46,282 nt of DNA from Cytobacillus oceanisediminis 2691. GTDB taxonomy: Bacteria; Bacillota; Bacilli; Bacillales; Cytobacillaceae. Position 1 is the first letter of the stretch. Each line of letters starts with the position of its first letter. This document shows positions 1,990 to 46,282 of the stretch, piece after piece. Both the position numbers and the translations under genes were made by a program. The stretch spans positions 1 through 46,282 of the forward strand of contig NZ_VEEP01000005.1 in NCBI RefSeq assembly GCF_007678455.1, read 5' to 3'. A model generated the notes under the pieces. It was not told the DNA's origin. It ran no database searches and saw only the letters and a list, made by a program, of their open reading frames with translations.

Positions 1990-2365
1990 TGAAAAGGAAA
2001 AACTGATCACTTTAGGGGAGATATGTGCTCGGTTGCTTGGTGAAAGAGAAAAACGGGTCACAAAAGGAAGAGGTATGTTCCCGGTTTCTGGGTGAAAGAG
2101 AAAAACGGAGCACAAAAGGAAGAGATATGTTCCCGGTTTCTGGGTGAAAGAGAAAAACGGAGCACATAAAGAAGAGATATGTTCCCGGTTATAGGGTGAA
2201 GGAGAAAAACGGAGCAGATAAAGAAGAGATATGTTCCCGGTTATAGGGTGAAAGAGAAAAACGGAGCACATAAAGAAGAGATATGTTCCCGGTTATAGGC
2301 AGTAATAAAAAACGAGGCACATATCGAGAGATATATTCCCGGTTTTAGGAAGAAAGAGAAAAACG
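1990..2365. repeat. Tandem repeat, about 7 copies of a 52-bp unit
   Basis: The phrase GAGATATGT..CCGG recurs at 2017, 2069, 2121, 2173, 2225 and 2277 (exactly 52 bp apart) and once more, degenerate, at 2327. Each unit also carries a GAGAAAAACGG segment. The central copies are nearly identical and the outer copies diverge. There is no spacer between units. This array takes up much of the gene-free stretch 1834-2860; the open frame through it on the minus strand is only an effect of the repetition (52 is not a multiple of 3, so each unit is read in a different frame). Confidence 0.92.
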
Positions 2366-2449
2366 GTCCATAAACTAGTGACGAGTGATGTGTTCCTCCA
2401 ATATCCGAGCCAATGAGAATTCAACCGCATAAACTTCGTAAAAAACAGA

Positions 2450-2659
2450 TCATACAATCAACCTCAATGGCTTTACACGACCACTTAATAGTATTGCTGT
2501 ATTCAGTAGGAAGTCTACGTAACCCCCCTCAGTCCTAATCACTATTCCATCATTTCCATATGAAAACGCTATCAACCGAAAAATATTTTTAATCACCATC
2601 TCTTTGCCAAACCTAATAAATTCAACCAACCCTCTCAAAAAATCATTATTCACTTTCAA
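2450..2659 (-). CDS. Possible small protein, 69 aa, unrecognised
   Basis: Minus-strand frame starting with TTG at 2659, preceded by GGAGAACGAAAG, a usable ribosome binding site. The product has a central hydrophobic stretch and two basic ends but no motif I recognise. It stands alone between the 52-bp repeat array and the glg promoter region, has a rare start codon, and may be chance or a gene remnant. I give it low weight and list it because the ribosome binding site is reasonable. Confidence 0.25.
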   Translation of the reverse strand: MKVNNDFLRGLVEFIRFGKEMVIKNIFRLIAFSYGNDGIVIRTEGGYVDFLLNTAILLSGRVKPLRLIV

Positions 2660-2701
2660 CTTTCGTTCTCCAAATTTCGCGTAATTGGAAGATTTAGTAC
2701 A

Positions 2702-2715
2702 TTAAAGCGCTACCA
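2702..2715 (+). promoter_or_regulatory. Candidate cre site (CcpA) upstream of glgB
   Basis: The 14-mer TTAAAGCGCTACCA matches the CcpA consensus TGWAARCGYTWNCA at 13 of 14 positions (only position 2 differs). It lies about 150 bp before glgB, so catabolite control of the glycogen operon is plausible. Function is inferred. Confidence 0.5.
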
Positions 2716-2863
2716 TTTGCGGGCTTTTGTCGAATTACCCGCTTAACTAAGTATTATTGTCGAAAAATTAAGAAAATGTTTACAAGGAATTCTTTATGGT
2801 AACTAGAATACTACTCAAATAGGAAGTTTTATTCGTTTTTACAAAGGCAGGTGGAGGGTATTG

Positions 2864-4819
2864 GTGATAAATCCAACAGAGTTTGAATTGCATCTGTTCC
2901 ATGAAGGGAATTTGTATCAGAGTCATAATTTATTTGGTGCGCATGTCATGAATCGAGGAACCGAAACATATACTCGATTTTGTGTGTGGGCTCCAAATGC
3001 GCTTGAAGTAAAGCTTGTTGGTGATTTTAATCATTGGTATGGAGAGAATCATAAGTTTCATAAAGTGAATAAGGAAGGTGTCTGGCAGCTTGCCTTAGAG
3101 GGTGATCTGACTGGAGCTATTTATAAATATGAGATTTTTACAGCTGGCGGGGGTAAGAAGCTTAAAGCTGATCCGTTTGCTTTCTTCTCGGAAGAGAGGC
3201 CAAATACCGCTTCGGTTGTTTATTCCCTTGATGGGTACAAATGGGGTGATCAGAAGTGGCTGCAGAAGAGGGAGGGGCGGAGCACGCTCGATGAGCCTGT
3301 GTTCATCTATGAACTGCATGTGGGTTCCTGGAAAAAGCATGATGATGGATCGTTCCTTACATATCGTGAGCTTGCAGATGAGCTGATTCCTTATATTCTT
3401 TCACATGGATACACACATATTGAGCTATTGCCTTTAACTGAGCATCCGCTCGACATGTCCTGGGGCTATCAATCCACAGGTTATTTTTCTGTTACAAGCC
3501 GTTATGGAACACCACATGAATTTATGTATTTCGTGGATATGTGCCATCAAAACGGCATTGGGGTTATCCTTGACTGGATTCCTGGCCATTTTTGCAAGGA
3601 TGCCCATGGGCTGTACCAGTTTGATGGCAGTTATGTTTTTGAATACCAGCGTGAGAGTGACCGGGAGAACCTGGTTTGGGGAACAGCCAATTTTGACTTG
3701 GGAAAAACAGAGGTCCAGAGCTTCCTGATCTCGAGTGCGATTTTCTGGCTGGAGAAATATCATATTGATGGCTTCAGGGTCGATGCGGTTGCGAACATCA
3801 TTTATTGGCCTAATTCAGTCAATGCAGCCAATCCGTACGGGGTGGAGTTTTTAAAGAAATTGAATAAAGCAGTGAAAGAGTTTGAACCTGGAGCTTTGAT
3901 GGTCGCGGAGGATTCGACCGACTGGCCGCAGGTGACGGCTCCCGTGGAGTATGGCGGACTAGGTTTTACATACAAGTGGAACATGGGGTGGATGAACGAC
4001 ACATTGAAGTATATGGAGGAAGAAAGCCATAACAGGAAGCATATACATGATAAGGTTACGTTCTCCCTGCTTTATGCTTTTTCAGAGAATTTTGTGCTGC
4101 CTTTTTCACATGATGAGGTGGTGCATGGAAAGAAATCTCTTCTCGACAAGATGCCGGGCGATTATTGGCAAAAATTTGCGCAGCTGCGGCTATTGCTTGG
4201 ATTCATGGTCGCGCATCCTGGAAAGAAGCTGACCTTCATGGGAACCGAATTCGGCCAGTTTTCGGAGTGGAAGGACAAAGAACAGCTTGACTGGAATCTG
4301 TTCGGGTATGAAATGCATGAAAAAATGAACCATTACACAAAAGAGCTGATCAAACTCTATAAGCGTTCAAAGCCACTGTATGAGATTGACCAGAGCTATG
4401 AAGGTTTTGAGTGGATTGACGCGGATAATCGTGACCAGTCGATTTTCTCTTTTATCCGTAAAGGGCAGAATCCGGAAGATCTGCTTGTCATCGTCTGCAA
4501 TTTTACCGAGAAAGTATACCATGAATATCGGATTGGTGTCCCGAAGTCCGGGGAATATCGGGAAATTTTAAATAGCGATGCTGAGGTTTTCGGGGGCTCA
4601 GGCGTGTTGAATAAAAAAGTGCGAAAAGCAAAGGAAATAGCTTTCCATGGAAGGCCATATTCTATAGAGATGAGTATTTCTCCATTCGGAATCTCAGTTT
4701 TACGTCCTGTTATTAAAAGAAAGGGGAGAAACAATCATGCAAAAGAAGAAATGCGTGGCAATGCTATTGGCAGGAGGAAAAGGAAGCCGTCTGCACTCAC
4801 TGACAAAGAATCTCGCTAA
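2864..4819 (+). CDS. glgB: 1,4-alpha-glucan branching enzyme GlgB
   Basis: GH13 branching enzyme that moves alpha-1,4 glucan segments to alpha-1,6 positions during glycogen synthesis. Visible: N-terminal CBM48-like part (FCVWAPNA.., GDFNHW), then the catalytic barrel with DWIPGHF, GFRVDAV (nucleophile Asp near residue 307), MVAED (acid Glu near 349) and [10 protein letters not shown] (Asp near 417). A GTG start at 2864 sits 6 nt after GGAGG; a TTG one codon earlier is also possible but too close. First gene of the operon. The frame runs 83 bp into glgC, giving a basic C-terminal tail ([15 protein letters not shown]) beyond the usual end of the family, about 20 residues longer than typical Bacillus GlgB. 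Identity is sure; start and tail are less so. Confidence 0.97.
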
Positions 4820-5885
4820 ACCTGCTGTCCCTTTTGGCGGCAAGTATCGAATCATCGATTTTCCATTAAGTAACTGCACAAACTCGGGCATCCATACAGT
4901 CGGTGTATTGACGCAGTATCAGCCGTTATTGCTTAACTCCTATATCGGCATAGGCAGTGCATGGGACCTCGACAGAAAGGATGGCGGGGTGACAGTGCTG
5001 CCGCCTTATGCTGAGAGTTCCGAGGTTAAATGGTATTCAGGCACGGCAAGTGCGATTTTTCAGAACCTGAATTATCTTGATCAGTATGATCCTGAATATG
5101 TTTTAATTCTTTCAGGTGACCATATTTATAAAATGAATTATGAATTGATGCTCAACTATCATGTTGAAAAAGGGGCTGATGTGACCATTTCGGTCATAGA
5201 GGTGCCTTGGGAAGAAACTAATCGTTTCGGGATCATGAATACGGATTTTGAGCTGAGAATTACTGAATTTGAAGAAAAACCGGATGTCGCTAAAAATAAT
5301 CTGGCTTCGATGGGAATTTATATTTTTAAATGGAGTGTTTTAAGGGAATATCTGATAAGAGATGACCAGAACCCGGAATCCAGCCATGATTTTGGCAAGG
5401 ATATCATTCCGCTGCTGATCGAAGAAAATATGAAGTTATTTGCCTATCCTTTTAAAGGTTACTGGAAGGATGTTGGTACTGTTCAGAGCCTGTGGGAAGC
5501 GAATATGGATTTATTGGATAAGGATTGTGAACTGAACCTGTTCGACCAGTCTTGGCGGATTTATTCCGTGAACCCGAATCAGCCGCCGCAATATATTTGC
5601 CCAGAGGGGGAAGTTTCGGAATCCCTTGTCAATGAGGGCTGCAAGATTGAAGGAGAAGTTTCCAAAACGGTCGTATTCCAGGGTGTAACGGTTAAAAAAG
5701 GAGCGGTTGTAAAGGAAACGGTCATTATGCCAGATGCGGTCATCGGCCATAATTGCGTGATTGAGAAGGCGATTGTGTCGCCAGGAGTGTATGTCCCTGA
5801 TGGAACAATCATCAGGCCAGATGATAGCTGCACTGAAATTACATTAGTATCGGAAGAAACAATTGGTGAATTGCAATCCAATTGA
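4737..5885 (+). CDS. glgC: Glucose-1-phosphate adenylyltransferase, catalytic subunit GlgC
   Basis: Makes ADP-glucose from glucose 1-phosphate and ATP, the committed step of glycogen synthesis. Residues 12-19 AGGKGSRL form the nucleotidyltransferase loop, followed by KPAVPFGG and [18 protein letters not shown] carries the metal-binding Asp. The C-terminal third (after about 280) is a left-handed beta helix of hexapeptide repeats. The ATG at 4737 follows AAAGGGGAGAA and lies within the glgB frame. 382 aa is normal for Bacillus GlgC. It is expected to pair with the GlgD subunit encoded next. Confidence 0.97.
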
Positions 5886-5908
5886 GCCGACTTCGGGAGG
5901 AAATAGAA

Positions 5909-6937
5909 ATGAACAAACGATTATTGGGAGTAATAGATGCGACAACCGTTCACGAAGATCTTCAGGAACTGTCCCTGCATCGGTCGGTGGCGGCGATTCC
6001 CTTTGGCGGGCGATACAGGCTGATTGATTTTATCCTTTCAAACATGGTTAATTCGGGAATCGAGAGCGTGGCAATTTTTCCAAAATACCAGTATCGGTCA
6101 TTAATGGACCATTTGGGGTCGGGTCGAAATTGGGACCTCAACCGAAAAAGGGATGGATTGTTTTTCTTCCCTGCATCAAATCTGAATAAAAATTATACGG
6201 GAATCGGAACATTGGATCACTTTGCCGATAACATTGATTATTTTGAACGCAGTACGCAGGATTATGCGCTGATAGCGAATTCCTATACGGTTTTCAATAT
6301 GGATTTCCAGCCGTTGCTTGACTGGCATATCGAATCCGGTTGTGACATTACGGAAGTACAGAAGAATGGAAGGTCTCTAGGAATTTATCTTGTGAAAAAA
6401 ACTCTGCTGATGGATTTGATCATGACAAGGAATGAAACAGGATATTCGAATATGAGGGATGCTGCCAGGGATACCAGCAGTCAGTTCCAGCTTTGTTATT
6501 ACGACTATGAAGGCTATGCAGTGATGGTGGATACCATCGCTAAATATTTCAGTGTGAGCATGGATTTGCTGAAGCCTGAGGTTTGGAAGGAGTTATTCCC
6601 TAAAGAACGCCCTATTTTAACAAAGGTGAAAGATGAGCCTCCAACCCGCTATGATGTGGATGCATCGGTCCGGAATTCAATGGTCGCCAATGGCGGGCTG
6701 ATTGAGGGGACGGTTGAAAACAGCATCATCGGAAGAGGTGTGAAAATTGGGAAGGGTACAGTGATCCGCAATTGTATCATCATGCAAAAGACGCAGATTA
6801 AGGAGAATTGTATATTGGACTCTGTAATAGTAGATAAGGATGCAAGAATCGAGGCAGGAACCGTGATTACAGCGCCAGCAGACTCGCCTGCTGTCATCCG
6901 TAAAGGAGCAGTACAGGGAGTGGGGAGCAGCTCGTGA
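5909..6937 (+). CDS. glgD: GlgD, regulatory-type subunit of ADP-glucose pyrophosphorylase
   Basis: Homologue of GlgC that in Bacillus forms a hetero-oligomer with GlgC and raises its activity (family knowledge). The sequence keeps the overall plan ([22 protein letters not shown] near the N-terminus, beta-helix at the C-terminus) but the glycine-rich AGGKGSRL loop is replaced by a region beginning LGVIDATT, consistent with a non-catalytic subunit. The ATG at 5909 has GGGAGG 8 nt upstream; an in-frame TTG at 5882 has no such site. 342 aa. Its stop overlaps the GTG of glgA (GTGA). Confidence 0.95.
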
Positions 6938-8385
6938 AGGTATTATTCGCAGTATCGGAATGTGTTCCTTTCATCAAGTCAGGAGGCCTGGCAGATGTAG
7001 CAGGATCACTTCCGAAGGAACTGGAAAAATTAGGAACGGATGTCAGGGTGATTTTACCGAAATACGGATTGATTCCTGAGAAATTCCGCTCTGAAATGAA
7101 GAAATTGAAAGAGTTTACTGTGCAATTGGGTTGGCGCTCGCAATATTGCGGCATTGAAGCTCTTGAACATGATGGTGTTACCTTCTATTTTGTGGACAAT
7201 GAATATTACTTCAAGCGGGATAGTCTTTATGGGCATTATGATGATGGGGAGCGTTTTTCCTTTTTTAGCAGGGCGGTGCTCGAGTTCATCGCCGAAAGCG
7301 AGTTTTATCCTGACGTGATCCATTGCCATGACTGGCATACAGGGATGATTCCTTTCTTGCTGCGGACAGAGTATTATAAGCGTCCGGGTTATGGATTGAT
7401 CCGGTCGGTATTCACGATCCATAACCTCCAGTTCCAGGGAATCTTTCCTCAGGAAGTGCTGGGTGACCTGCTGCAGATTGACAGTTCTTATTTCAATGAG
7501 GAACAGCTGGAATTTTACGGGATGGCCAATTTCATGAAAGCCGCATTGATTTCAGCAGATCATATCACGACCGTCAGCCCTACTTACAAGGACGAAATCC
7601 AGACTGAGTATTTTGGTGAAAAACTGGATGGAATCCTGAGAAAAAGGCGTGAGGATCTTTCAGGGATCTTAAACGGGATCGACCATGATGCTTATGACCC
7701 TGAAAGCGATCCTGGCCTGGCCGCCAGTTTTGGTGTATGGGGACTAGAAAGAAGAGTGATCAACAAACTGCAGGTACAGCGAAGCTTTGGCCTTCCGGTT
7801 AATGATGATGTTCCGGTTGTTGCGATGATCACAAGGCTGACGAAACAAAAAGGCCTTGATTTGGTCAGGGAAGTCTTCCATGAAATCATGGCAACGGGAG
7901 TGCAGCTTGTTGTTCTTGGCACCGGTGACCCTGAGTTTGAGCAGTTCTTCAGGGAAATGGCTGCGGAATATCCTGACCAATGTGGCGTATATATCGGCTT
8001 TGATGAGAATCTGGCACATCAGGTTTATGCAGGATCCGATTTATTTTTGATGCCATCAAAGTTCGAGCCATGCGGATTGAGCCAGATGATTGCGATGCGC
8101 TATGGATCGATCCCGATTGTCAGGGAGACGGGCGGGCTGAACGATACGGTACAGCCATATAATGAATTCACCGGAGAGGGCAATGGTTTTACTTTTGCCA
8201 ATTTCAATGCCCATGACATGCTCTTTACGATTGAACGGTCACTCTCATTTTACCGTAAGCGTGAAAAATGGCTGAAGCTGATGGCACAGGCAATGGAAAC
8301 AGATTATAGCTGGGCGCAGTCGGCAAGACAGTACAAAGACTTGTATTCCGATCTCATCTCAAGGAGTGAATCGCATGTTTTCTAG
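6934..8385 (+). CDS. glgA: Glycogen synthase GlgA (ADP-glucose type)
   Basis: GT5 glycosyltransferase that adds glucose from ADP-glucose to the non-reducing ends of the glucan. KSGGLADV at residues 15-22 is the KTGGL-type ADP-glucose loop, and [17 protein letters not shown] contains the conserved E-x7-E type C-terminal motif. 483 aa, normal for the family. The start is GTG at 6934, overlapping the glgD stop by 4 nt, with GTGGGGAG just upstream; translational coupling is likely. Confidence 0.97.
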
Positions 8386-21626: not shown

Positions 21627-21636
21627 AAAATGTGGA

Positions 21637-21668
21637 GAGCACTGCTTTGGCAGTGCTTTATTTTTTTG
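21637..21668 (+). terminator. Terminator of the men operon
   Basis: Stem GCACTGC/GCAGTGC (21639-21645, 21650-21656) with loop TTTG, followed by TTTATTTTTTT. Confidence 0.9.
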
Positions 21669-21706
21669 TCAGGTCAAATTGGAAAAAGTGAGTGTTTTTT
21701 TCCAAT

Positions 21707-21826
21707 TCGCTATAAAAAGGAAAAAGTCGCTATAAAAACGAAAAACTCGCTATAATAATAAAAAAATCGCTATATAAATGAAATTTTCGCTATATAAATT
21801 AAAATCTCGCTATAAAAATTATCGTA
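21707..21826. repeat. Array of six 20-bp units with a fixed head and variable tail
   Basis: TCGCTAT begins at 21707, 21727, 21747, 21767, 21787 and 21807, exactly 20 bp apart. The head TCGCTATAAAAA (or TCGCTATATAAA) is kept and the last 8-9 bp vary. It is preceded by an inverted repeat AATTGGAAAAA/TTTTTCCAATT (21678-21706). Located between the men terminator and the hmp promoter. Confidence 0.9.
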
Positions 21827-24762: not shown

Positions 24763-24784
24763 CAGATTAATAAATTTTTAAAAG

Positions 24785-25080
24785 CAATGAAGAGAAAAAG
24801 TAGGGTGCCCCTGTTTTTTACCAGAGAGCTTCGGAAGCTGAAAAGAAGCAAAGACAGACACTTGAAAAATGGTCTCTGAGCTCCGTCCTGAACATGCTGC
24901 AGGCATAAGTAGGTAACGGCGAGAGTTGGCACTCGTTATCAATGTCACAGTATAAGAGCAGGCATTCCATGCTCCGTACTTGGTGAGGCAAATAGTGTAA
25001 GCTATTTGCGAAATAAGGTGGTATCACGGGGAATCCAAACCTCGTCCTTAACTTTTACGGTTAAGGGCGGGGTTTTTTTA
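24785..25080 (+). promoter_or_regulatory. T-box riboswitch, methionine specifier
   Basis: Stem I begins near GAAGAGAAAAAGTA. The specifier is ATG at 24869-24871: it is preceded by GAAAA and followed after five bases by TGAGC, the spacing seen in known T-boxes. Stem III GCAAATAG/CTATTTGC lies at 24988-25009. The T-box AAGGTGGTATCACGGG is at about 25015-25030; its TGGT would pair with the ACCA end of uncharged tRNA-Met (A73). The terminator CCTCGTCCTTAA/TTAAGGGCGGGG plus seven Ts (25040-25079) competes with the antiterminator. It turns on the MetRS gene when methionyl-tRNA is short. Confidence 0.94.
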
Positions 25081-31798: not shown

Positions 31799-31800
31799 AA

Positions 31801-31835
31801 AATTGGCGGTTTGCAGTTGAGACCGCCAATTTTTT
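31801..31835 (+). terminator. Terminator of ytkD
   Basis: AATTGGCGGT/ACCGCCAATT 10-bp stem and T-run immediately after the gene. Confidence 0.92.
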
Positions 31836-31913
31836 AGGTTGATCTGTACGGGAATATGATCTTTCATGGCAAATGCGCATTACGAAAGGTCGTTACAAAT
31901 GCAGTTCACTAAC

Positions 31914-31983
31914 TTATTGGCGAAAAATAAATTTTATTGGCGGTTTTCTCCATTTTATTGGCGAAAATCTGATTTTATTGGCG
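31914..31983. repeat. Array of four 20-21-bp units with head TTATTGGCG
   Basis: TTATTGGCG starts at 31914, 31934, 31955 and 31975. On the minus strand each unit reads CGCCAATAAAA followed by 9-10 variable bases, like the TCGCTATAAAAA array at 21707-21826. It lies between the ytkD terminator and the convergent ytlD terminator. Confidence 0.85.
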
Positions 31984-32033
31984 ATGGCACTACTTATTCT
32001 AAAGAGAGAATCATTTTACGCCTAAATCTAAAA

Positions 32034-35862: not shown

Positions 35863-35916
35863 GAATAGGGCTGGTGCTAACTGTTAGAAAAACAATCAAG
35901 TGTGCAAAGTGCATCT

Positions 35917-36000
35917 TTATTGGTGCCCTGTTTTCGGATGGAACGGGAATTTAGGTCAGCAAAGGGCTTTATTGGTGCCCTGTCCTACAAGGGAACGGGA
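35917..36000. repeat. Two copies of a 52-bp repeat (TTATTGGTGCCCTG..AACGGGA)
   Basis: TTATTGGTGCCCTG begins at 35917 and again at 35969, exactly 52 bp apart; each is followed after about 12 variable bases by GGAACGGGA. Between the ytmB terminator and the pckA terminator. An open frame on the plus strand here (35900-36514) mostly shadows pckA. Confidence 0.8.
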
Positions 36001-36056
36001 TTGTGGCTTTGCTCAATATAAGAATCCATTTATGAATAACAAAATAATAAAATCAA

Positions 36057-37740: not shown

Positions 37741-37977
37741 CCAGTTCCAGCGCCTGACCGCTCGAGTCGCTTGGCTAGTGTCGCCTCCTAGAAATTTCGA
37801 AACTTCAACTCCGCCCACAGAAGCAAAAAACGCTTCATTGCCGGAGTCTCCAGTTTCTGCGTTTCTGGTCAGACGGCTATACTTTTCGATTTTGGTCTGC
37901 CCAATGAAGACAAAAAACGACTTCGCTGGTCGGCCTCCAACGCTTGCCGCGGCAGGTCAAGGCGCTTCCACTTTTCT
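37741..37977. repeat. Palindromic intergenic repeat, enlarged inverted copy
   Basis: Reverse orientation of the element at 30175-30294: CCAGTTCCAGCGCCTGACC..CTCGAGTCG at the left and AACGACTTCGCTGGTCGG, CTCCAACGCTTG, GGCGCTTCCACTTTTC at the right. It differs by an insertion of about 120 bp (about 37776-37893) containing GAAATTTCGAAACTT and GGAGTCTCCAG. Situated between the pckA promoter and the MITE. Confidence 0.8.
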
Positions 37978-38146
37978 TGAAAGAATGATAATTTGTAAGT
38001 GTTTACATCTCGGTAATAGTATAACACATTGCTTCAATTAATCTATACTAATGATGAAAAAATTACCTTGTACCTAACTTGCGTTATATAATTCTTTCTT
38101 TATATAGTCAAGTAATATGGGTTGGTTTGACAACTTTTTATTTTAA

Positions 38147-38385
38147 GGCTCTGTTAAACAAGACTGTTGATTTTTGTTCCAGGCGCTTCGCTTTCCGCGG
38201 GGGAAGAATTATGAAAAAGCTCAAGTGCCAGCTTTTTCAAAGACCAAATTCTTCTTGGCTGGCGCTGAGCCTCCTCGTCGCTTTGCTCCTGCGGGGTCTC
38301 ACCTAACCAGCTGCGCCCGCAGGAGCCTACGCGCCTTCCACTACAATCAACAGGTGTAAAAACAACATTGGGCTTTAACAGAGCC
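38147..38385. mobile_element. MITE-like element with 12-bp terminal inverted repeats and 8-bp target duplication
   Basis: Left end GGCTCTGTTAAA (38147-38158), right end TTTAACAGAGCC (38374-38385), perfect 12-bp inverted repeat; further subterminal similarity (CTGTTGATT on both). The flanks carry the identical 8-mer TATTTTAA at 38139-38146 and 38386-38393. 239 bp, GC-rich core, no transposase. An 8-bp duplication and GGCTCT ends fit mobilisation by an IS6- or ISL3-family transposase supplied elsewhere (inference). Confidence 0.85.
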
Positions 38386-38437
38386 TATTTTAAAGAAATG
38401 GTTTCAACAACAATCGACATTTTTGTCGAGAAAATGA

Positions 38438-38466
38438 TTGACATGGCCAGACAGGTTCGTTATGAT
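38438..38466 (+). promoter_or_regulatory. Sigma-A promoter of the metK riboswitch
   Basis: TTGACA (38438-38443), 17-bp spacer, TATGAT (38461-38466); start of transcription near 38473, right before the aptamer. It begins 53 bp after the MITE end. An inverted repeat TCGACA/TGTCGA (38414-38429) is just upstream. Confidence 0.85.
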
Positions 38467-38483
38467 TTTGATTTGAACGGATA

Positions 38484-38678
38484 CTCTCTTATCCCGAGCT
38501 GGTGGAGGGACAGGCCCAATGAAACCCAGCAACCTGCAAACGAGAAAAACAGCCTAAGAATCAGCTGATCTTTTCCGGGCAAAGGTGCTAACCTGACGCA
38601 AGGGAATTGCCCTTGAACGATAAGAGCGAAAGGCGCGGTTAAAGCTAAAACCTTTCCTCACAATTGGAGAGGTTTTTT
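38484..38678 (+). promoter_or_regulatory. SAM riboswitch (S-box) with terminator
   Basis: The SAM-I core is clear: CTCTTATCCCGAG, GGTGGAGGGA, GGCCC-ATGAAACCC-AGCAACC, AAGGTGCTAA and closing CGATAAGAG (P1, about 38630). The terminator AACCTTTCC/GGAGAGGTT plus TTTTTT is at 38649-38678. When S-adenosylmethionine is abundant the anti-antiterminator forms and transcription stops before metK. Confidence 0.97.
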
Positions 38679-38912
38679 ATATTGCTTTTTTCTGTCCGAT
38701 GCATAGAAATGCAACTGGACTGCCTTCTTTGGTGTCATTGCTCCCGTGGGTGAAAATTAGGAAAAAAAGAAATTCACCATGAATCTTAAACAAATTTTTC
38801 TAATAAAAACTCAGCGTTTATTTCATACTACATAGGGAATGAGTACCGTATCAAACCGAGGTTTGTATTGGGACAGCCTCGATCAATTTTTATACATGAG
38901 GGAGGAACTCAG
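38679..38912 (+). other. Long leader between the S-box terminator and metK
   Basis: 234 bp without a gene. It contains a small hairpin TGCAT/ATGCA and a looser CGAGG/CCTCG pairing shortly before the metK ribosome binding site. No second riboswitch was recognised. Confidence 0.4.
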
Positions 38913-40115
38913 ATGTCAAACAAACGCCGTTTGTTCACTTCTGAATCAGTAACAGAAGGCCATCCGGATAAAATTTGCGACCAGATTTCTGACGCGATTT
39001 TGGATGCGATCCTTGCTAAAGATGCTAACGCACGTGTTGCTGCTGAAACATCAGTTACAACTGGCCTTGTACTAGTTGCAGGCGAAATCACAACATCTAC
39101 ATACGTAGATATTCCTAAAATCGTACGTGAAACTGTCAAGGAAATTGGCTATACTCGCGCGAAGTACGGCTTTGACGCTGAAACTTGCGCAGTGTTAACT
39201 TCCATTGACGAGCAGTCTGCAGACATCGCGATGGGTGTTGACCAGGCTCTTGAAGCACGTGAAGGACAAATGTCCGATGCAGAAATCGAAGCAATCGGAG
39301 CTGGCGACCAAGGCTTGATGTTCGGTTTTGCATGTAATGAAACGAAAGAGCTTATGCCGCTTCCGATTTCATTGGCGCACAAAATTTCCCGCCGCCTGAC
39401 TGAAGTGCGCAAGGAAGAAATCCTTCCATATCTTCGTCCGGACGGAAAAACTCAGGTAACGGTAGAATACGATGAGAATGACAAGCCAGTCCGCATCGAC
39501 ACAATCGTTATCTCAACACAGCACCATCCTGAAGTTTCGCTTGAGCAAATCCAGCGCAATCTTAAAGAACATGTCATCAACCCTGTCGTACCGGCAGAGC
39601 TGATCGATGAAAACACAAAATACTTCATCAACCCAACTGGCCGTTTCGTAATCGGCGGACCACAGGGTGACGCAGGTCTTACTGGCCGCAAAATCATCGT
39701 TGATACTTACGGCGGATACGCTCGCCACGGCGGAGGCGCATTCTCTGGTAAGGATCCTACAAAAGTTGACCGTTCAGCTGCATACGCTGCGCGTTATGTT
39801 GCGAAAAACATCGTCGCTGCAGGCCTTGCTGAAAAAGTTGAAGTTCAGCTTGCTTACGCAATCGGTGTTGCCCGTCCGGTATCTATCTCAATCGATACGT
39901 TCGGAACAGGCAAGGTAAGCGAAGATGTATTGATCGATGTTGTTGAAAACAACTTCGACCTTCGTCCAGCTGGAATCATCAACATGCTTGACCTGCGCAA
40001 GCCAATCTACAAGCAGACAGCTGCATACGGACACTTCGGCCGTTCTGACGTTGACCTTCCATGGGAGCGTACAGACAAGGCAGAGGCACTCCGCACTCAG
40101 GCTCAAGGTAAATAA
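38913..40115 (+). CDS. metK: S-adenosylmethionine synthetase MetK
   Basis: 400 aa. Makes SAM from methionine and [17 protein letters not shown] at the N-terminus, [10 protein letters not shown] (ATP), [16 protein letters not shown] and [16 protein letters not shown] are the conserved blocks with catalytic Lys and Asp. ATG 38913 is 7 nt after GGGAGG; the upstream in-frame ATG at 38868 is rejected. Codon use is strongly biased as in highly expressed genes. Controlled by the S-box upstream. Confidence 0.98.
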
Positions 40116-40126
40116 AAAGGAACAAC

Positions 40127-40160
40127 GGGAGTTGCATAGAAATATGTAACTCCCTTTATT
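40127..40160 (+). terminator. Terminator of metK
   Basis: 12-bp stem GGGAGTTGCATA/TATGTAACTCCC (one G-T pair) with GAAA loop followed by TTTATT. Confidence 0.82.
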
Positions 40161-40369
40161 ATTTGCCGTCTAATTAGGGAGCGCCAGATATTTTCAAGGT
40201 TTGCACCTGGTCCAAAAGGTGTAAAATAAAGTATTACCTTAAATTTCCCTCAGATTTTACTGCAAAAATTTTGCGTTTAATGGTAGTATTAGATGGTATG
40301 TTTTTTGGAAGTAAAATCACTGGAAAATCACAATAAATTTTTTCTGAAATGGAGAAGGTGAAGTACATA

Positions 40370-42265
40370 ATGTGTGGCTTTATCGGTTGTGTACATGAAA
40401 ATGCACAGGAATTCAGCAGCGATGATAAGCAGCTGTTCAAAAATATGAATGACATCATCACCCACCGCGGGCCTGATGATGATGGGTATTTCTATGATGA
40501 GCATATCCAGTTCGGCTTCCGCCGTCTGAGCATCATCGACCTTGAGGCTGGCCATCAGCCATTGACTTATGAAAATGAACGCTATTGGATCATTTTTAAC
40601 GGGGAAATCTACAACTATCTCGAACTTCGTGAAGAGTTGATTGAAGAAGGACTGACTTTCGAAACGCACTCTGATACTGAAGTCATCATTGCCCTATACA
40701 GCCACCTTAAGGAGCAGGCTGTAGACAAGCTGCGCGGAATGTTCGCATTTGTCATCTGGGATAAGCAGGAACAAGTCCTTTACGGTGCACGTGACCATTT
40801 CGGCATCAAGCCATTCTTCTATTTTGAAGATGAAAATCGCACATTCTTCGGTTCTGAAAAGAAAAGCATTTTGCTTGCGCTGCAGAATGATGTGATTGAT
40901 TATAAGGCACTGCAGCACTATTTAACTTATCAATTTGTCCCAGAACCTAATACAATGTCTGAAGGCATCTACAAGCTTGAGCCAGGGCATTATTTTACAA
41001 AGAAAATCGGTTCACCTATGGAAATCAAGCGTTATTGGAAAGCGAGCTTCTCGCCAATCCAAAAATCTGAGGATGAATTCACGAAGGAGATCAGGGATGT
41101 CCTGTTCGAATCGGTGAAAATCCACATGCGCAGTGATGTGCCGGTTGGTTCTTTCCTTTCCGGCGGGATTGATTCTTCTATCATTGCGTCGATTGCGAAG
41201 CAATACCATCCTGGAATCAAAACATTCTCTGTCGGATTTGAACAGAATGGCTTCAGCGAGATTGACGTCGCCAAGGAAACGGCTGATCGACTCGGTGTTG
41301 AAAATATCAGCTATGTGATCAGCCCGCAGGAATACATGGATGAACTTCCTAAAATCATGTGGCATATGGATGACCCGCTTGCTGATCCGGCAGCCATACC
41401 TTTGTATTTCGTTGCCCGTGAGGCAAGGAAGCATGTAACGGTAGTCCTTTCCGGTGAAGGTGCCGATGAATTGTTCGGGGGCTATAATATTTACCGCGAA
41501 CCGCAAGACCTCGAGGTATTCAATAAAATTCCCGGAGTAGGGAAGGCGATGCTTAAGGGCATTTCCAAAATGATGCCAGAGGGTATGAGAGGCAAGAGCT
41601 TCATCGAGCGCGGCGTGACTCCAATGGAGGAGCGTTATATCGGAAACGCGAAGATGTTCACGGAAAAAGAGAAGAGCGAACTGCTGCATGTTTATAACGG
41701 CCAGTACGATTACAGGGATGTCACGAAGCCTTTATATCGTGAAAGCAGAGGCTATGATCCGGTTGATACAATGCAATACATCGACATCCACACATGGATG
41801 CGCGGCGATATTTTATTGAAAGCAGATAAGATGACGATGGCTCATTCTTTGGAGCTTCGCGTACCATTCCTGGATAAGGTTGTTTTTGAAACAGCTTCAA
41901 AGATTCCGACAAGCCTGAAGACAGCGAATAATACAACGAAGTATATTTTGCGAAAAGCGGCAGAAGGAGTGGTCCCTGACCACGTGCTTACCCGCAAGAA
42001 ACTCGGCTTCCCGGTGCCAATCAGACACTGGCTTAAGAATGAAATGAACGAGTGGGCAAAGAACATTATCAAGGAAAGCAACACAGAACATCTTATCAAT
42101 AAGTCTTACGTTTTAAGACTATTGGATGAACACTGCCAGAACAAGGCGGATAACAGCCGTAAAATCTGGACAGTTCTGATGTTCATGATGTGGCATGATG
42201 TGTATGTCGAAAAAAAATACTCCTTCCAGAAGGAGTATGAGGCTCAAAAAGTATTACAATCTTAA
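40370..42265 (+). CDS. asnB: Asparagine synthetase (glutamine-hydrolysing) AsnB
   Basis: 631 aa. N-terminal class II glutamine amidotransferase with C2 as nucleophile (MCGFIG), THRGPDDDG and FNGEIYNY; C-terminal synthetase with PP-loop SFLSGGIDSS, SGEGADELFGGY and LRVPFLD. The start at 40370 (8-9 nt after GGAGAAGGTG) puts Cys at position 2, which the enzyme needs; the ORF start 21 bp upstream is wrong. Some AsnB paralogues amidate cell-wall precursors, but similarity to the B. subtilis AsnB next to metK supports asparagine synthesis. Confidence 0.95.
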   Translation: MCGFIGCVHENAQEFSSDDKQLFKNMNDIITHRGPDDDGYFYDEHIQFGFRRLSIIDLEAGHQPLTYENERYWIIFNGEIYNYLELREELIEEGLTFETHSDTEVIIALYSHLKEQAVDKLRGMFAFVIWDKQEQVLYGARDHFGIKPFFYFEDENRTFFGSEKKSILLALQNDVIDYKALQHYLTYQFVPEPNTMSEGIYKLEPGHYFTKKIGSPMEIKRYWKASFSPIQKSEDEFTKEIRDVLFESVKIHMRSDVPVGSFLSGGIDSSIIASIAKQYHPGIKTFSVGFEQNGFSEIDVAKETADRLGVENISYVISPQEYMDELPKIMWHMDDPLADPAAIPLYFVAREARKHVTVVLSGEGADELFGGYNIYREPQDLEVFNKIPGVGKAMLKGISKMMPEGMRGKSFIERGVTPMEERYIGNAKMFTEKEKSELLHVYNGQYDYRDVTKPLYRESRGYDPVDTMQYIDIHTWMRGDILLKADKMTMAHSLELRVPFLDKVVFETASKIPTSLKTANNTTKYILRKAAEGVVPDHVLTRKKLGFPVPIRHWLKNEMNEWAKNIIKESNTEHLINKSYVLRLLDEHCQNKADNSRKIWTVLMFMMWHDVYVEKKYSFQKEYEAQKVLQS

Positions 42266-42268
42266 AAA

Positions 42269-43147
42269 TTAGGGAAGGTAGGTGATGGCCTGCCTTCCCA
42301 TCTGCACCCAGGATTCTGCGAAATCCTTAATGGGTGCTTTTTTATTTTTTTCATTTGATAAAGGATCATTGAAATAGACGAAGTTTTCATCATACCCGGT
42401 AATCAGGACAGAATGTTCCTTCGTTGTAATTTTAACAGGCCCGCCAGGCGTGTACCATGTCTGGAAAAAGCTGTCGTCCAGCTTTTTGTATTCGGTGTTA
42501 ATGATCACCCAAACTGGCCTGCCATCTGACAGGTGCGATTTAATATCCTGGAATCCTGCGCCCGTAAGATCTTTTATTTTGCCGGGAAGATACTTTTCTG
42601 CCAGTTCAGCAATTGGTTTATGATAGACTCCGAGCCCTGGTTCTGTGTATGTGTACATATTGCCGACAAAGCCCTCATTCGGGTCTCCAAAAAAGACTTT
42701 TCCATTATCGAGGCGGTACTCAGCCGGGTTTTTCCTGACTTCGCTGGCGAGTGTCAGCTTGTCCACTTTTACACCCTGATGCATGAGGAGCATGGCCAGG
42801 CTTGTTACCTCACATCCTCGAGGGAGCTCAGGCATTTGCCATATGATTGGTGCCTCCAGGAGTACCTGCTTTTTAGTCGGTATGATTTTAGGTTCGCTCT
42901 CTTCCTGGACAGCAGGTGCCCTTTCTGTTCTGGGTTCAGGCTCATCCAGCCAGTCTTTCACCGATTGTACGGCCAGGGCTACATGTGAAGCCTGAAGGTT
43001 CTCGAGGAGGAAAGCACCAACGATTGAGGTGAAAACAAACAGGAACATCAAGATGGATTTCATCATGCTATTTTGTTTTCGAATCAATAAATAAAACATG
43101 AGCAGCAAAGGGATAATTGCTGCAATAGGTAAATACAGTTTGTCCAC
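42269..43147 (-). CDS. C39-like (YvpB-type) peptidase domain membrane protein
   Basis: 292 aa. Two N-terminal hydrophobic segments (about 5-22 and 30-50) anchor it, a short acidic/Pro linker follows, then a C39_2-like papain-fold domain with Cys112 (LPRGCEVTSLAMLL), His245 (KEHSVLITGYD) and Asp261 (FNDPL). Extracellular cysteine peptidase activity is likely but no substrate is known. Start: GTG 43147 has GGGGTG 6 nt upstream; ATG 43153 and TTG 43174 are less well placed. Its last codons form a terminator stem. Confidence 0.82.
   Translation of the reverse strand: MDKLYLPIAAIIPLLLMFYLLIRKQNSMMKSILMFLFVFTSIVGAFLLENLQASHVALAVQSVKDWLDEPEPRTERAPAVQEESEPKIIPTKKQVLLEAPIIWQMPELPRGCEVTSLAMLLMHQGVKVDKLTLASEVRKNPAEYRLDNGKVFFGDPNEGFVGNMYTYTEPGLGVYHKPIAELAEKYLPGKIKDLTGAGFQDIKSHLSDGRPVWVIINTEYKKLDDSFFQTWYTPGGPVKITTKEHSVLITGYDENFVYFNDPLSNEKNKKAPIKDFAESWVQMGRQAITYLP
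42272..42299 (-). terminator. Terminator inside the 3' end of the C39-like gene
   Basis: 11-bp stem GGGAAGGCAGG/CCTACCTTCCC on the minus strand (42299-42272) followed by TAATTTTT. The stem lies within the last ten codons, and its T-run includes the stop codon. asnB ends 3 bp away on the other strand. Confidence 0.75.
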
Positions 43148-43234
43148 ATCCATCACCCCGTCCGCATATTTCAAAAATAATAGGGTATATTATATTATTT
43201 AGTATCGGACTGGTGAGGGAGTTTTTTTAGCAGA

Positions 43235-43756
43235 TCATTCATCTTTGTTCTGCAAACTTTTATAGTATTGCCCTTTTTCGGCGTATTCTCTGGAAATGCG
43301 TTCCATATCCCTTATATCGTCTTCGTTCAATTCACGGATGACTTTTGCCGGTCGTCCGAAAGCCAGTGTATTGGGCGGGATCTTCTTACCCTGAGGAACG
43401 AGGCTGCCGGCACCAATAAAAGCGCCTTCGCCGATTTCAGCTTCATCAAGAATGATTGACCCCATCCCAATCAGGGCCTTTTTCCTGATGATGCAGCTGT
43501 GGAGGACGACCTGATGTCCGACGGTCACCTCGTCTTCGAGGATTAAAGGGTTATTCGGACTTTGATGCAGGACCGAATTGTCCTGGATGTTCACTTTATT
43601 GCCAATGATCGTCGGGGCGACATCGCCGCGGATCGAGGTATTGAACCAGACACTCGATTCCTCACCGATTTCAACATCTCCGGTAATTGTTACATAATCC
43701 GCGATAAAAGCGGAATCTGCTATTTTAGGTGTTTTGCCATTGTAAGGATAAATCAT
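43235..43756 (-). CDS. ytoA: Gamma-carbonic anhydrase family protein YtoA
   Basis: 173 aa left-handed beta-helix protein of hexapeptide repeats (residues about 15-140) with a C-terminal helix. The three His that bind zinc in the family are visible in NSVLHQS and VGHQVVLHSC; AFGRPAKVIREL is typical of the YrdA/PaaY group. Enzyme activity is not certain in this group. ATG 43756 is 7 nt after AGGAGTG; the longer frame from 43804 contains that site and is rejected. Divergent from ytpA. Confidence 0.9.
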   Translation of the reverse strand: MIYPYNGKTPKIADSAFIADYVTITGDVEIGEESSVWFNTSIRGDVAPTIIGNKVNIQDNSVLHQSPNNPLILEDEVTVGHQVVLHSCIIRKKALIGMGSIILDEAEIGEGAFIGAGSLVPQGKKIPPNTLAFGRPAKVIRELNEDDIRDMERISREYAEKGQYYKSLQNKDE

Positions 43757-43862
43757 TTGTGCACACTCCTGTAATTTTATAATGCTTTCGTTTTTATTTT
43801 TCATTAATTATATATTATAGTTCTTTTAAAGAAAGAAAAAGTATTTGAGTGGGGGAATGGTC

Positions 43863-44666
43863 ATGTGGAAATGGGAAGCTGATGGGGATGCTAAGGCTGT
43901 GATTGTGATGATTCATGGTGCGCAGGAGCATCATCGCCGGTATGGCTGGCTGATTGAAGCCTGGCGTTCATCCGGTTTTCATGTCATAATGGGTGACCTG
44001 CCAGGACAGGGCATGACCACAAGAGCAAACCGTGGCCATATTGATTCCTTTGATGAATATATTTTGGAAGTGAAAGAGTGGATAGAGGCAGCTTATGACT
44101 TTGACCTCCCAGTGTTTTTGCTAGGCCACAGCATGGGGGGACTTATTGCCATCCGCTTGCTGCAGGAGGAACGTGTCGAACTTGCCGGATTGATACTATC
44201 ATCACCATGCCTCGGATTGGTAAAGTATCCATCAAAAATGCTGGATATGCTCTCGCACGGCCTGAATGTCATTTTACCGACATTCAGGATCTCATCGGGC
44301 CTGTCTGTCGATATGGCAACCAGGAATGAGGATGTCAGGGCAGTCGACGCCAATGATTCATTATATATTACCAAGGTATCGGTGCGCTGGTACCGCGAGC
44401 TGGCAGCGGCAATGGGGCTTGCGTTTGATAATATGGATAAAGTCCAGGACGTACCAACACTGCTTCTGCAGGGCGGAGATGATAAGATAGTCGATAAGCG
44501 AGCGGTTAAAGATTGGTTCAACAATGCCCCGCTTTCAGAGAAACGATATAAAGAATGGCCGAAATGCTACCATGAAGTCTTCAATGAACCTGAACGCGAA
44601 GAGGTTTTTGACTATGCGCATGATTTTGTCATGAGCCAGCTGAAGGCGATTGGATATGTTTATTAG
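43863..44666 (+). CDS. ytpA: Alpha/beta hydrolase YtpA (lysophospholipase-like)
   Basis: 267 aa. GHSMGG nucleophile elbow near residue 88, Asp in QGGDDKIVD, His in CYHEVFNEPERE: the monoacylglycerol lipase/lysophospholipase plan. In B. subtilis YtpA produces bacilysocin, a lysophospholipid antibiotic, from phosphatidylglycerol; the same role here is inferred. ATG 43863 is 7 nt after GTGGGGGA; ATG 43857 is too close. Followed by ytpB in an apparent operon (24-bp gap). Confidence 0.88.
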   Translation: MWKWEADGDAKAVIVMIHGAQEHHRRYGWLIEAWRSSGFHVIMGDLPGQGMTTRANRGHIDSFDEYILEVKEWIEAAYDFDLPVFLLGHSMGGLIAIRLLQEERVELAGLILSSPCLGLVKYPSKMLDMLSHGLNVILPTFRISSGLSVDMATRNEDVRAVDANDSLYITKVSVRWYRELAAAMGLAFDNMDKVQDVPTLLLQGGDDKIVDKRAVKDWFNNAPLSEKRYKEWPKCYHEVFNEPEREEVFDYAHDFVMSQLKAIGYVY

Positions 44667-44690
44667 AAAGAGAAAGGGTGAAGCTGCAGC

Positions 44691-45785
44691 ATGATGATCC
44701 CATCAATGCCCATCAGTTTGATGTACCGGGTGTACAGAAAAGTCCTGCCACAGGTACATCGGGAGCTGGCATACTGGAAAAGCAGGGCAGAGGAAATCCC
44801 GAATCCTGAACTCAGGAGGCAGGCCCTGGCTAGCATCGAGCACAAGACTTTCCATTGTGAGGGCGGCTCTATTATGAGTCTGACCGCGAAAAAACAATAT
44901 AAAGAGGCCATCCGGTTCATTGTGGCTTACCAGACAATCAGCGATTATCTCGATAATCTATGTGACCGCAGCACCTCGCTGGATCCGGTGGATTTTGCCG
45001 CACTGCATGAGTCGATGGCAGATGCTCTCAGCCTGGACAACCAGTTGAAAAATTATTATCGCGAGCGGGAAGACCAGAATGATGGCGGGTATCTGATCGA
45101 GCTGGTTACCGTTTGCCGCGAAGTCCTTGCCGGGCTTGATCATTATCAGGATATAAAGGAGCATCTGGTTGAACTGTGTGATTACTATTGCGATTTGCAG
45201 ATACATAAGCATGTCGAGGTGAAAGAGCGTGTGCCGAGATTGCAAACATGGTTCGATGGCCATCGTGAAAATATTCCCGACATGGAATGGTACGAATTCT
45301 CAGCCTGCACCGGATCGACGCTCGGCATCTTTTGTCTCGTATCCTACGCGCTTCGCGATGATTTCAAACCGGAATACGCAGATAGCATCCGCAACGGTTA
45401 TTTTCCATACATACAAGGGCTGCACATCCTCCTGGATTATTTCATCGACCAGGAAGAGGATCGCGAAGGCGGCGATTTGAACTTCTGTTTCTATTATGAA
45501 AATGAAGAAGCTTTGTTTGGGAGGTTGCGGTATTTTGTGGAAAATGCCGACCGGCACACAGCTCGATTGCCGCATCGGAAATTCCACAAACTGATCAACC
45601 GCGGACTGCTCGGCGTTTATCTATCCGATGAAAAAGTAAGGCGTCAGGAAAGAATCAGGAAGCTCGCCAGGGAAATGATCAAAACAGCAGGCCCCGTCAG
45701 CTACTTCTTTTATATTAATGGACGAGCTTATCGGTCATTGCAGAAGTGGGTGCCATCAGGAGTCGTGAAGGCGTTTATAAAATAG
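44691..45785 (+). CDS. ytpB: Tetraprenyl-beta-curcumene synthase YtpB
   Basis: 364 aa large-terpene cyclase (class IB) that acts on linear tetra- or hexaprenyl diphosphate in sesquarterpene formation in Bacillus. Acidic motifs D85-Y-L-D88-N-L-C-D92 and DYFIDQEEDREGGD fit metal-diphosphate binding. No membrane segment. The ATG at 44691 follows AAAGGGTG at about 11 nt; a second ATG is the next codon. Known products (sporulenes) protect membranes and spores; the role here is inferred from the family. Confidence 0.93.
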   Translation: MMIPSMPISLMYRVYRKVLPQVHRELAYWKSRAEEIPNPELRRQALASIEHKTFHCEGGSIMSLTAKKQYKEAIRFIVAYQTISDYLDNLCDRSTSLDPVDFAALHESMADALSLDNQLKNYYREREDQNDGGYLIELVTVCREVLAGLDHYQDIKEHLVELCDYYCDLQIHKHVEVKERVPRLQTWFDGHRENIPDMEWYEFSACTGSTLGIFCLVSYALRDDFKPEYADSIRNGYFPYIQGLHILLDYFIDQEEDREGGDLNFCFYYENEEALFGRLRYFVENADRHTARLPHRKFHKLINRGLLGVYLSDEKVRRQERIRKLAREMIKTAGPVSYFFYINGRAYRSLQKWVPSGVVKAFIK

Positions 45786-45790
45786 GATTG

Positions 45791-45819
45791 CAGCCAGGGA
45801 TTGAGCCTTGGCTGTTTTT
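45791..45819 (+). terminator. Terminator of ytpA-ytpB
   Basis: CAGCCAGG/CCTTGGCTG stem followed by TTTTT. Confidence 0.85.
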
Positions 45820-45869
45820 GAATCAGGAGAATTAAGTCACCCGAATCAACCAAATAAAGGTGATATTTG

Positions 45870-45985
45870 ATTGCGGTCACAGACTGAGACGGGCTGCGCC
45901 AAAAAGAGGAAATCACTCGGATACGGTCGCAGAAAAGGAGCAGCTGCGCCCGAAAAGAGGAAACCACTCGGAGTACGGTCGTAGA
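45870..45985. repeat. Degenerate repeat, three partial copies with a 50-51-bp period
   Basis: CGGTC starts at 45874, 45924 and 45975; GAGGAAATCACTCGG and GAGGAAACCACTCGG and CAGCTGCGCC/GGGCTGCGCC recur at the same spacing. Lies directly before the 53-bp array. Confidence 0.75.
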
Positions 45986-46047
45986 ACTAGAGAGAGGTGC
46001 CATGTAAATATGTGTCTTAACTGAAAAAACGTTATACATACCCTTGT

Positions 46048-46282
46048 ATGGTGCCCTTATATGGACAATTTCGCCTGCATAAGGGTATCTATCGACATGA
46101 ATGGTGCCCTTATGTGGACAATTTCGCCTGCATAAGGGTATCTATCGACTTGAATGGTGCCCTTATGTGGACAATTTCGCCTGCATAAGGGTATCTATCG
46201 TCTTGAATGGTACCCTTATGTGAACAATTTCGCCTGCATAAGGGTATCTATCGACATGAATGGTACCCTTATGTGAACAATT
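46048..46282. repeat. Tandem repeat, 53-bp unit, running off the window
   Basis: AAGGGTATCT recurs at 46081, 46134, 46187 and 46240, exactly 53 bp apart. Each unit has CATAAGGG and, 23-25 bp on, CCCTTATG, an 8-bp inverted repeat that could form a hairpin. Copies are nearly identical. No coding sequence is seen from 45786 to the end. Confidence 0.92.

Follow-up and report, generated by a model that had tools for sequence, protein, structure and literature searches.

Intergenic tandem arrays with periods of two and five helical turns in Bacillales as possible phased sites for DNA bending or wrapping

Introduction

Why should tandem repeats whose sequence differs from one intergenic region to the next keep to the same two unit lengths? 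The question is raised by the first 46,282 bases of contig NZ_VEEP01000005.1 of Cytobacillus oceanisediminis 2691 (the window; genome 4.9 Mb). A first-pass annotation of the window reported six intergenic arrays with periods near 20 and near 52 bp, about two and five turns of B-DNA, and argued that slippage in unrelated sequence would not pick the same two periods. Intergenic tandem repeats are often dismissed as products of slippage or as markers for typing. In the present arrays the letters change, while period, symmetry, spacing and AT phasing were found to be kept. Our reading, to which we assign a probability of roughly 0.5, is that the arrays are phased duplex sites where transcription units end, and that DNA there would be bent or wrapped round a repeating protein assembly. 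If architectural, they offer countable and editable natural sites at which bacterial DNA bending and the separation of neighbouring transcription units could be studied.

Results

Two period classes dominate intergenic arrays

The six arrays of the window and their two period classes were largely recovered (Table 1). Tandem Repeats Finder (TRF) called four of the six. The pair of units at 35917, for which there was no TRF call, was upheld by a lag test, as its best match at lag 52 (33/45) was reached by 0/100 Markov shuffles, and 3.3 copies of the 52-bp unit stand at the same place in G006, a genome of the same species. The array at 45870 is marginal because its lag-50 match of 27/45 was reached by 1/100 shuffles, which is near chance.

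A census of array periods was performed on 2.446 Mb of sequence from seven genomes of five genera, a sample of about a tenth of each larger genome and not whole genomes (the window and 20 further stretches of its own genome, G000; 20 stretches each of G003 and G006; 5 each of G040 and G057; 25 each of G152 and G162). G000, G003 and G006 belong to one genus, which we infer to be Mesobacillus, G000 and G006 to one species, and the remaining genomes to four other genera. TRF arrays with a period of at least 13 and a score of at least 50 were counted, gene calls came from a simple script based on hexamers and Markov-shuffled copies of all sequence served as controls. Among the 142 intergenic arrays 58 had periods of 50–54 bp, 61 had periods of 20–21 or 39–42 bp and 23 had other periods. 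The two classes thus made up 119/142 intergenic arrays as compared to 20/52 arrays inside called genes (3, 17 and 32 arrays in the same order), while shuffled sequence gave 0, 6 and 3. In the 50–54 bp band 57 of the 58 intergenic arrays had a period of exactly 52 bp and one of 53 bp. The period histogram, proposed with the first-pass annotation as a check, was accordingly spiked and not broad in the sampled sequence, with an excess at 20–21 and 50–54 bp over both coding and shuffled controls.

The four genomes outside Mesobacillus supplied 15 of the 58 intergenic arrays of 50–54 bp. As the other three are of one genus and two of them of one species, some of the arrays counted in Mesobacillus are homologous. 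In the window's own genome, 446 kb of sampled sequence contained 15 intergenic 52-bp-class arrays, so that by extrapolation the whole genome would hold well over a hundred. Array-poor genomes were also encountered: 40 kb each of G165 and G011 yielded no array and three arrays, respectively, none of the latter near 52 bp.

The 52-bp unit is a dyad frame with exchangeable words

Of the 52 bp of each unit, 27 bp form a dyad and 25 bp a linker. Inverted repeats with at least 8 pairs in 10 were sought in 32 arrays of period 50–54 bp, one of them coding; at every odd loop length between 5 and 27 they were present in 10–17 of the arrays, and at even lengths in 0–3, as is to be expected of repeats with a common axis. 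At loop 7 a dyad was found in 14 arrays as opposed to 0.23 expected from shuffled units. From locus to locus the dyad is filled by different words (TGTCC...GGACA with varying inner letters, TGTCA, GGTCA, GGGCA, GGTAA and others). Left outer 5-mers were of 13 kinds in a set of 64 arrays, TGTCC occurring in 35; 19 of 83 arrays had been dropped for want of a 52-bp consensus or of a dyad with at least 7 pairs, and the set is enriched in TGTCC, as 20 loci were fetched by a TGTCC pattern, which also affects the mismatch, diversity, harmonic and phase sets below. That the arrays are of unrelated sequence, as first described, was therefore borne out in that words differ by locus, but not entirely, as both outer arms fit K-G-K-M-M in 47/64 arrays (TGTCC, TGTCA, GGTCA, GGGCA and GGTAA).

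The pattern TGTCC-N17-GGACA-N25-TGTCC-N17-GGACA, with up to 2 mismatches, was present in 151/193 genomes and 19/25 genera of the family and in 82/397 genomes and 35/135 genera of the order, with up to 447 matches per genome; a backward control gave 0–3. It had no match in G011, of the window's own genus, or in 13/13 genomes of genus g20, where other words were not searched.

Conservation within arrays follows the dyad. In 60 arrays with 491 units (excluding L105, which equals L095, and arrays with fewer than 3 full units or identical first units) mean diversity was 0.098 at arm positions 1–8, 0.253 in the middle seven positions and 0.203 in the linker, and the arms were less diverse than the linker in 51 and than the middle in 56 of the arrays. 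The bases immediately outside the dyad were also conserved. Conservation of the right arm appeared higher than that of the left, which we tentatively put down to first units being incomplete at the array edge. Judging from this profile, half-sites would alternate at about 20 and about 32 bp, two and three turns. Taken with the 20-bp class below, the arrays have the conserved half-sites, variable spacers and integral-turn spacing of a helically phased protein-site array.

At the level of whole arrays the arms are palindromic, positions 6–8 pairing in 0.82–0.97 of 38 arrays as compared to 0.54–0.61 after shuffling. Position 9 was mismatched in 22/38 arrays, with C against G in the arm direction in 18 of these. 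Dyad mismatches, in a set that still counts two arrays twice (L095/L105 and L101/L121), comprised 117 G-T and 112 A-C in 3110 cells, and only 4 of 178 departures were compensatory doubles. The dyad is read as a duplex site on account of this lack of G-T excess and scarcity of compensation. Covariation of the arms as stems, considered at first, was abandoned because the mismatches do not resemble those of RNA and position 9 so often fails to pair.

AT content oscillates with the helical repeat

In 36 non-redundant 52-bp units the 5th harmonic of AT content (10.4 bp) had a power of 36.0 versus 13.0 in permuted units (z 10.7), with a phase coherence of 0.92. Frames were aligned on their best dyad before phase averaging; the other harmonics, aligned alike and serving as internal control, stayed at or below z 0.8 and coherence 0.40. 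Non-arm positions alone gave a best period of 10.1 bp (R2 0.69, 0/1000 permutations) and all unit positions one of 10.2 bp (R2 0.43), on a fitting grid of 0.1 for the observed data and a coarser 0.2 for the permutations. The normalised 10.4-bp signal was 2.81 in array units, while 7597 intergenic 52-mers taken as control gave 1.21; array units gave 3.01 when the dyad filter was omitted (35 units, from the sampled stretches and the window only). Mean phase was 86 degrees in Mesobacillus (20 units, coherence 0.97) and 89 degrees in the other genera pooled (19 units, 0.87), and TGTCC units (19; coherence 0.98) agreed in mean phase with those of other words (20; 0.87).

The 20-bp class oscillates similarly. 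AT power in 45 intergenic arrays was 8.1–8.4 at 10.0–10.25 bp, 6.2 at 20.5 bp and 1.9 at 6.83 bp, and the 2nd harmonic of 20–21-bp units was 1.98 versus 1.06 when permuted (n=49), or 1.99 in 29 non-redundant units. The AT oscillation fits what is expected of bent or wrapped DNA. In a wedge model, predicted curvature exceeded that of shuffled units of the same period in 27/36 cases (p 6e-5), and 44 arrays were predicted to be more curved than 2148 pieces of control DNA (p 5e-6).

Arrays of the 20-bp class follow genes directed towards them

The core TTATTGGCG recurs at a spacing of 20 or 21 bp in 90/102 steps, the core being fixed and the spacer variable. Pairs of it were found in 20/21 genomes of the genus and in 9/172 others (1–2 matches each), and pairs of TCGCTATAAA in 19/21 and 2/172 (1 match each). 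In the sampled Mesobacillus stretches (1.246 Mb) 17/17 arrays of this class lie downstream of a gene pointing at them, two of the three genomes being of one species, and 11 of the 17 bear a AACTGGAAAAAA...TTTCCAGTT head. In a chosen set 22/25 were oriented with the upstream gene, and a head like that ahead of the menC array (Table 1) precedes most of its TTATTGGCG-word arrays. Several, the menC case included, were read to stand after a terminator-like hairpin. At L001:1500-1800 a TTATTGGCG array lies beside a TATAGCGA array in one orientation with a single head in between.

This orientation, and a head that can fold, would be explained if the arrays were 3' elements acting at the RNA level, transcribed by read-through and functioning as RNA hairpins or protein-binding RNA. 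We nevertheless regard this as quite improbable. Several arrays come after the terminator-like hairpin, 52-bp arrays show no gene orientation (11 versus 7 with respect to the strand of flanking genes, 4 neutral), the dyad mismatches are unlike those of RNA stems and eleven pieces folded about as well as shuffles (z -2.0 to 1.3). An Rfam scan of the window found tRNAs, a T-box, a SAM riboswitch and nothing else, no family reaching threshold at any array. An RNA or single-strand hairpin was thus rejected, with folding near the shuffled level and no wobble asymmetry, and a gene-strand orientation of the 52-bp class was not supported.

Arrays avoid divergent regions

The same 1.246 Mb contained 86 arrays of both classes, 10 of them within called genes and 5 at the end of a stretch. 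The 71 arrays with both neighbours known were distributed over convergent (24), codirectional (40) and divergent (7) regions, as compared to 19%, 58% and 22% of background intergenic bases (chi-square about 12.8 by hand arithmetic), a depletion from divergent regions. In codirectional regions 16/22 arrays of the 52-bp class were closer to the 3' end. The description of the arrays as lying mostly after terminators or at convergent ends therefore held in part: convergent regions hold 24/71, while the largest share is codirectional and a few arrays are divergent.

Depletion from divergent regions and 10.4-bp AT phasing are also what might be seen if phased bends drew DNA gyrase to places where transcription units end, in the manner of BIME-2 of E. 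coli (a bacterial interspersed mosaic element, BIME), and positive supercoils were removed there. Gyrase is, as far as is known, universal, and this would fit a patchy gain and loss of arrays. According to the sections of Sutormin 2018 (PMC6379681) used here, the flanks of the E. coli gyrase motif are GC-periodic at 10.75 bp and BIME-2 is rich in gyrase sites. The period of the arrays is however 10.4 bp (52/5) or about 10.25 bp (20.5/2) and not 10.75 bp, and their word-specific conserved arms and cores exceed a mere preference for bends. Gyrase loading is therefore judged improbable, and we retain the reading of sites for a wrapping assembly.

A place can keep its array while the word changes

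Orthologous loci were compared across the genus, in up to 21 genomes including the window's own. At the 3' site of pckA TRF arrays of period 51–53 bp were present in 7/21 genomes. Four different words stand at or next to this site, namely GGTGCCC, GGTAAAAGCA, TGTCCGAA and CATAAGGGTGC, the placement of the last (G004) being less exact because it lies 216–700 bp from pckA. A word resembling that of the window's array at 46048 stands near the pckA 3' end in G004 (period 53, 9.2 copies). In further relatives the site has the TGTCC word in L078 and L079, a single remnant in L081 and none in L080; in the last (L080:14456-15693, M. selenatarsenatis) an apparently coding-like insert of about 1.2 kb takes the place of the array. 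L081 (JAGGQZ010000022.1), titled Chryseobacterium sp. ISL-80, matches 10/13 window anchor proteins at 89–100% identity and is, on that basis, probably a mislabelled Mesobacillus.

Between the tRNA genes and glgB, arrays of period 51–52 bp were found in 10/20 genomes, with a single drifting word and a different word in G017. The menC-hmp site carries an array of the 20-bp class in 15/21 genomes by TRF, and one of period 19 in G019, while in G017 a 52-bp array replaces the 20-bp class. Cores at this site are spaced by 20 bp in 70/73 steps under 30 bp, and the head is similar at 16/16 orthologous loci for which the upstream piece was displayed. At the ytkD site the same word, in 3–7 cores, occupies the same place in 4/4 relatives (L078–L081). 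In the window a terminator-like stem 3' of ytkD (31800-31836, by eye, TTGGCGGT...ACCGCCAA) has TTGGCG in common with the array core about 80 bp further downstream.

The comparison therefore indicates that a place can keep an array while the word, and once the class, changes. Since period, dyad, spacing and phase are kept with changing words, selection appears to act on the frame and not on the word. The first-pass view that helical phasing matters and that slippage does not account for the two periods is in this way supported by the histogram controls, the 10.4-bp AT component, the spacing kept with divergent spacers and the replacement of word or class at one locus. We suggest tentatively, at slightly less than even odds, that the arrays constitute a class of DNA element across many Bacillales genera with a selected helical frame and a locus-free word, in which arrays interchange and would be read by diversified wrapping proteins or by DNA mechanics.

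The period could also be inherited and not selected, had ancestral 52-bp and 20-bp repeats spread as neutral or selfish elements, drifted at each locus and been homogenised by slippage. Copy number does vary, array-poor relatives exist, units are alike within loci, one word drifts across species at tRNA-glgB and most outer words share one pattern, as common descent predicts. Drift would not, however, spare the arms and the cores when it alters middles and spacers, and would hardly leave the length of the 52-bp unit so exact. The four words at or beside the pckA spot, all of period 51–53 bp, and the single AT phase of different words likewise speak against it, and a neutral origin is considered unlikely.

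The 52-bp class is purine-rich on the leading strand

In stretches of G003, G006, G162 and G152 (excluding the period-54 array in L061 and an array in L152, both called coding) 33/40 arrays of the 52-bp class were purine-rich on the leading strand, as compared to 57.5% among 6144 52-mers used as control (p 7e-4). Mean purine excess was 0.097 versus 0.016 in controls (p 2e-8), which is beyond ordinary intergenic skew, and array strand followed replication in 4/4 conflicts with flanking genes. The window's array at 2018..2366 is purine-rich on the + strand (purine 0.69). Such arrays could be polar marks for a replication or chromosome-translocation system. Given that 7/40 arrays disagree, that the 20-bp class follows genes, that arrays of one genus are not independent and that the skew could be an enhanced mutational one, we consider this very unlikely.

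Features of the window

The window's features are collected in Table 1. For the array at 46048 a mechanical dyad scan favoured a wider frame (loop 16) over the 27-bp frame read by eye. Of the Rfam matches, the T-box leader lies at 24778-25052 (RF00230, 106.8 bits) and the SAM riboswitch (RF00162) at 38486-38626, upstream of an open frame at 38868-40115.

Table 1. Arrays and associated elements of the 46,282-bp window
Feature	Position	Strand	Basis and remarks
52-bp array, 6.8 copies (period 52)	2018..2366	+	TRF; dyad GGAGCACATA-N7-GATATGTTCC; flanked by tRNA cluster and glgB
Intrinsic-terminator-like hairpin, 3' of menC, directly ahead of 20-bp array	21636..21659	+	
Head element (hairpin or dyad AATTGGAAAAA...TTTTTCCAATT) preceding 20-bp array	21677..21707	+	sequence
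20-bp array, 5.7 copies, core TCGCTATAAA	21707..21819	+	TRF
20/21-bp array, 3.5 copies, core TTTATTGGCGA, convergent ytkD / ABC permease gene gap	31914..31984	+	TRF, period 20
Two 52-bp units, 3' of pckA, convergent genes	35914..36020	+	lag-52 identity
27-bp dyad frame GGTCAGCAAA-gggcttt-ATTGGTGCCC inside pckA 3' pair	35954..35980	.	read by eye
Marginal two-unit repeat, lag 50	45865..45959	+	lag-50 identity
53-bp array, 4.4 copies, cut by window end, dyad word CATAAGGGTATC...GGTGCCCTTATG	46048..46282	+	TRF
27-bp dyad frame GGGTATCTAT-CGACATG-AATGGTGCCC in 53-bp array	46083..46109	.	read by eye

Discussion

In the mechanism that we favour, the sites of an array would sit on one face of the helix within DNA that alternates between AT and GC every 10.4 bp. 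Where transcription units end, this DNA would bend, or wrap, round a protein assembly that itself repeats. Each unit of the 52-bp class would act as a dyad with two half-sites. The 20-bp class offers a directional core at two-turn intervals, preceded at many loci by a head of about 30 bp, and lies downstream of a gene pointing at it, at several loci directly after a terminator. We infer binding by a protein as opposed to bare DNA shape acting alone. The local effect might be to hold a bend or plectoneme, and thereby to separate neighbouring transcription units or absorb torsion, the topological role being the more conjectural part.

Several points weigh against this reading. No candidate protein binding the arrays was found. 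The 10.4-bp signal is a class average, as just 25% of single units pass the 95th percentile of controls. Periodicity, moreover, need not mean bending, since in the sections used here of a genome-scale study (PMC7537859) the dinucleotides whose periodicity all organisms share differ from those that bend DNA. TGTCC arrays are missing from some close relatives and their role must therefore be dispensable there, and congeners are often without a TRF-callable array at orthologous loci (one was called in 7/21 genomes at pckA and in 10/20 at glgB). The leading-strand purine richness of 52-bp arrays is not predicted by wrapping, and as the 52-bp class follows replication while the 20-bp class follows genes, the two may not share one function. 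Within the open-access literature none of the best-ranked titles dealt with intergenic arrays in Bacillales that have a 52-bp period or are helically phased; subscription papers and preprints lay outside the scope of this search.

Comparison with known systems

The closest known kinds are the Staphylococcus aureus repeat (STAR) elements, reportedly described in Staphylococcus by Cramton in 2000, and the BIMEs; neither fits. In the sections of Purves 2012 (PMC3532100) used here, STAR elements are intergenic direct repeats with locus-specific spacers, species-specific loci and changes in copy number, their abundance is unrelated to phylogeny, they have a start signature and their function is called unknown. 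The arrays are likewise intergenic with locus-specific spacers and variable copy number, and STAR elements may be a related case. However, the STAR unit at the gapR locus is 14 + 40–44 bp (54–58 bp) according to the same account, as compared to 57/58 arrays at exactly 52 bp here, and that account holds no counterpart, in the sections used, to the helical phasing and word exchange of the arrays. The STAR word is a repeated 14-bp consensus, T(G/A/T)TGTTG(G/T)GGCCC(C/A). The exact pattern TGTTGNGGCCC-N36-50-TGTTGNGGCCC had 0 matches in G000 and occurred in 1/398 genomes of the class (G925). Membership among STAR elements was accordingly rejected by word and period. The STAR-like array of G925 (G925:C1:1609308-1609620, L190-L194) has a period of 60–61 bp and, by eye, two palindromes per unit, which is the same two-dyad idea as in the 52-bp class in a different frame.

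Repetitive extragenic palindromic (REP) sequences and BIMEs are, in the part of PMC3733652 used here, short palindromes repeated between genes, and some BIMEs are bound by gyrase (PMC6379681, in part). The arrays differ in that no one palindromic word recurs genome-wide (13 left 5-mers in 64 arrays) and in that their dyads are not hairpin-like (G-T 117 versus A-C 112; 4/178 compensatory). The Y1 transposase domain PF01797 was found in 19/20 array-rich versus 17/20 array-poor genomes, with none in the array-rich G020 and a remnant only in G402. Y1 transposase genes thus do not track array abundance, and a reading as REP sequences with their associated tyrosine transposases (RAYT) was rejected by this test, which concerns the Y1 domain only.

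The 20-bp class resembles plasmid iterons, direct repeats that likewise measure about two helical turns and keep a conserved core. The arrays are different in standing at many chromosomal loci, downstream of genes and with a head element. Clustered regularly interspaced short palindromic repeats (CRISPR) are given in part of PMC3733652 as repeats of 24–48 bp with non-repetitive spacers; the 20-bp class, with a core and a spacer of about 10 bp each, is not of this kind, and cas genes were not searched for.

With the E. coli gyrase motif the arrays share a GC/AT alternation near the helical repeat, which is interpreted there as phased bending (PMC6379681, in part). The motif has a period of 10.75 bp, is degenerate, extends over about 130 bp and is not described as tandem in the sections used, while the helically periodic GC/AT content of the arrays is at 10.4 bp. 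A helical-repeat component in composition is, finally, also common to the genome-wide bacterial periodicity of 10–11 bp (PMC4132750 and PMC7537859, each in part). That periodicity is a weak average and, in the cyanobacterial study, mainly one of coding DNA, whereas the arrays described here are discrete, intergenic and tandem.

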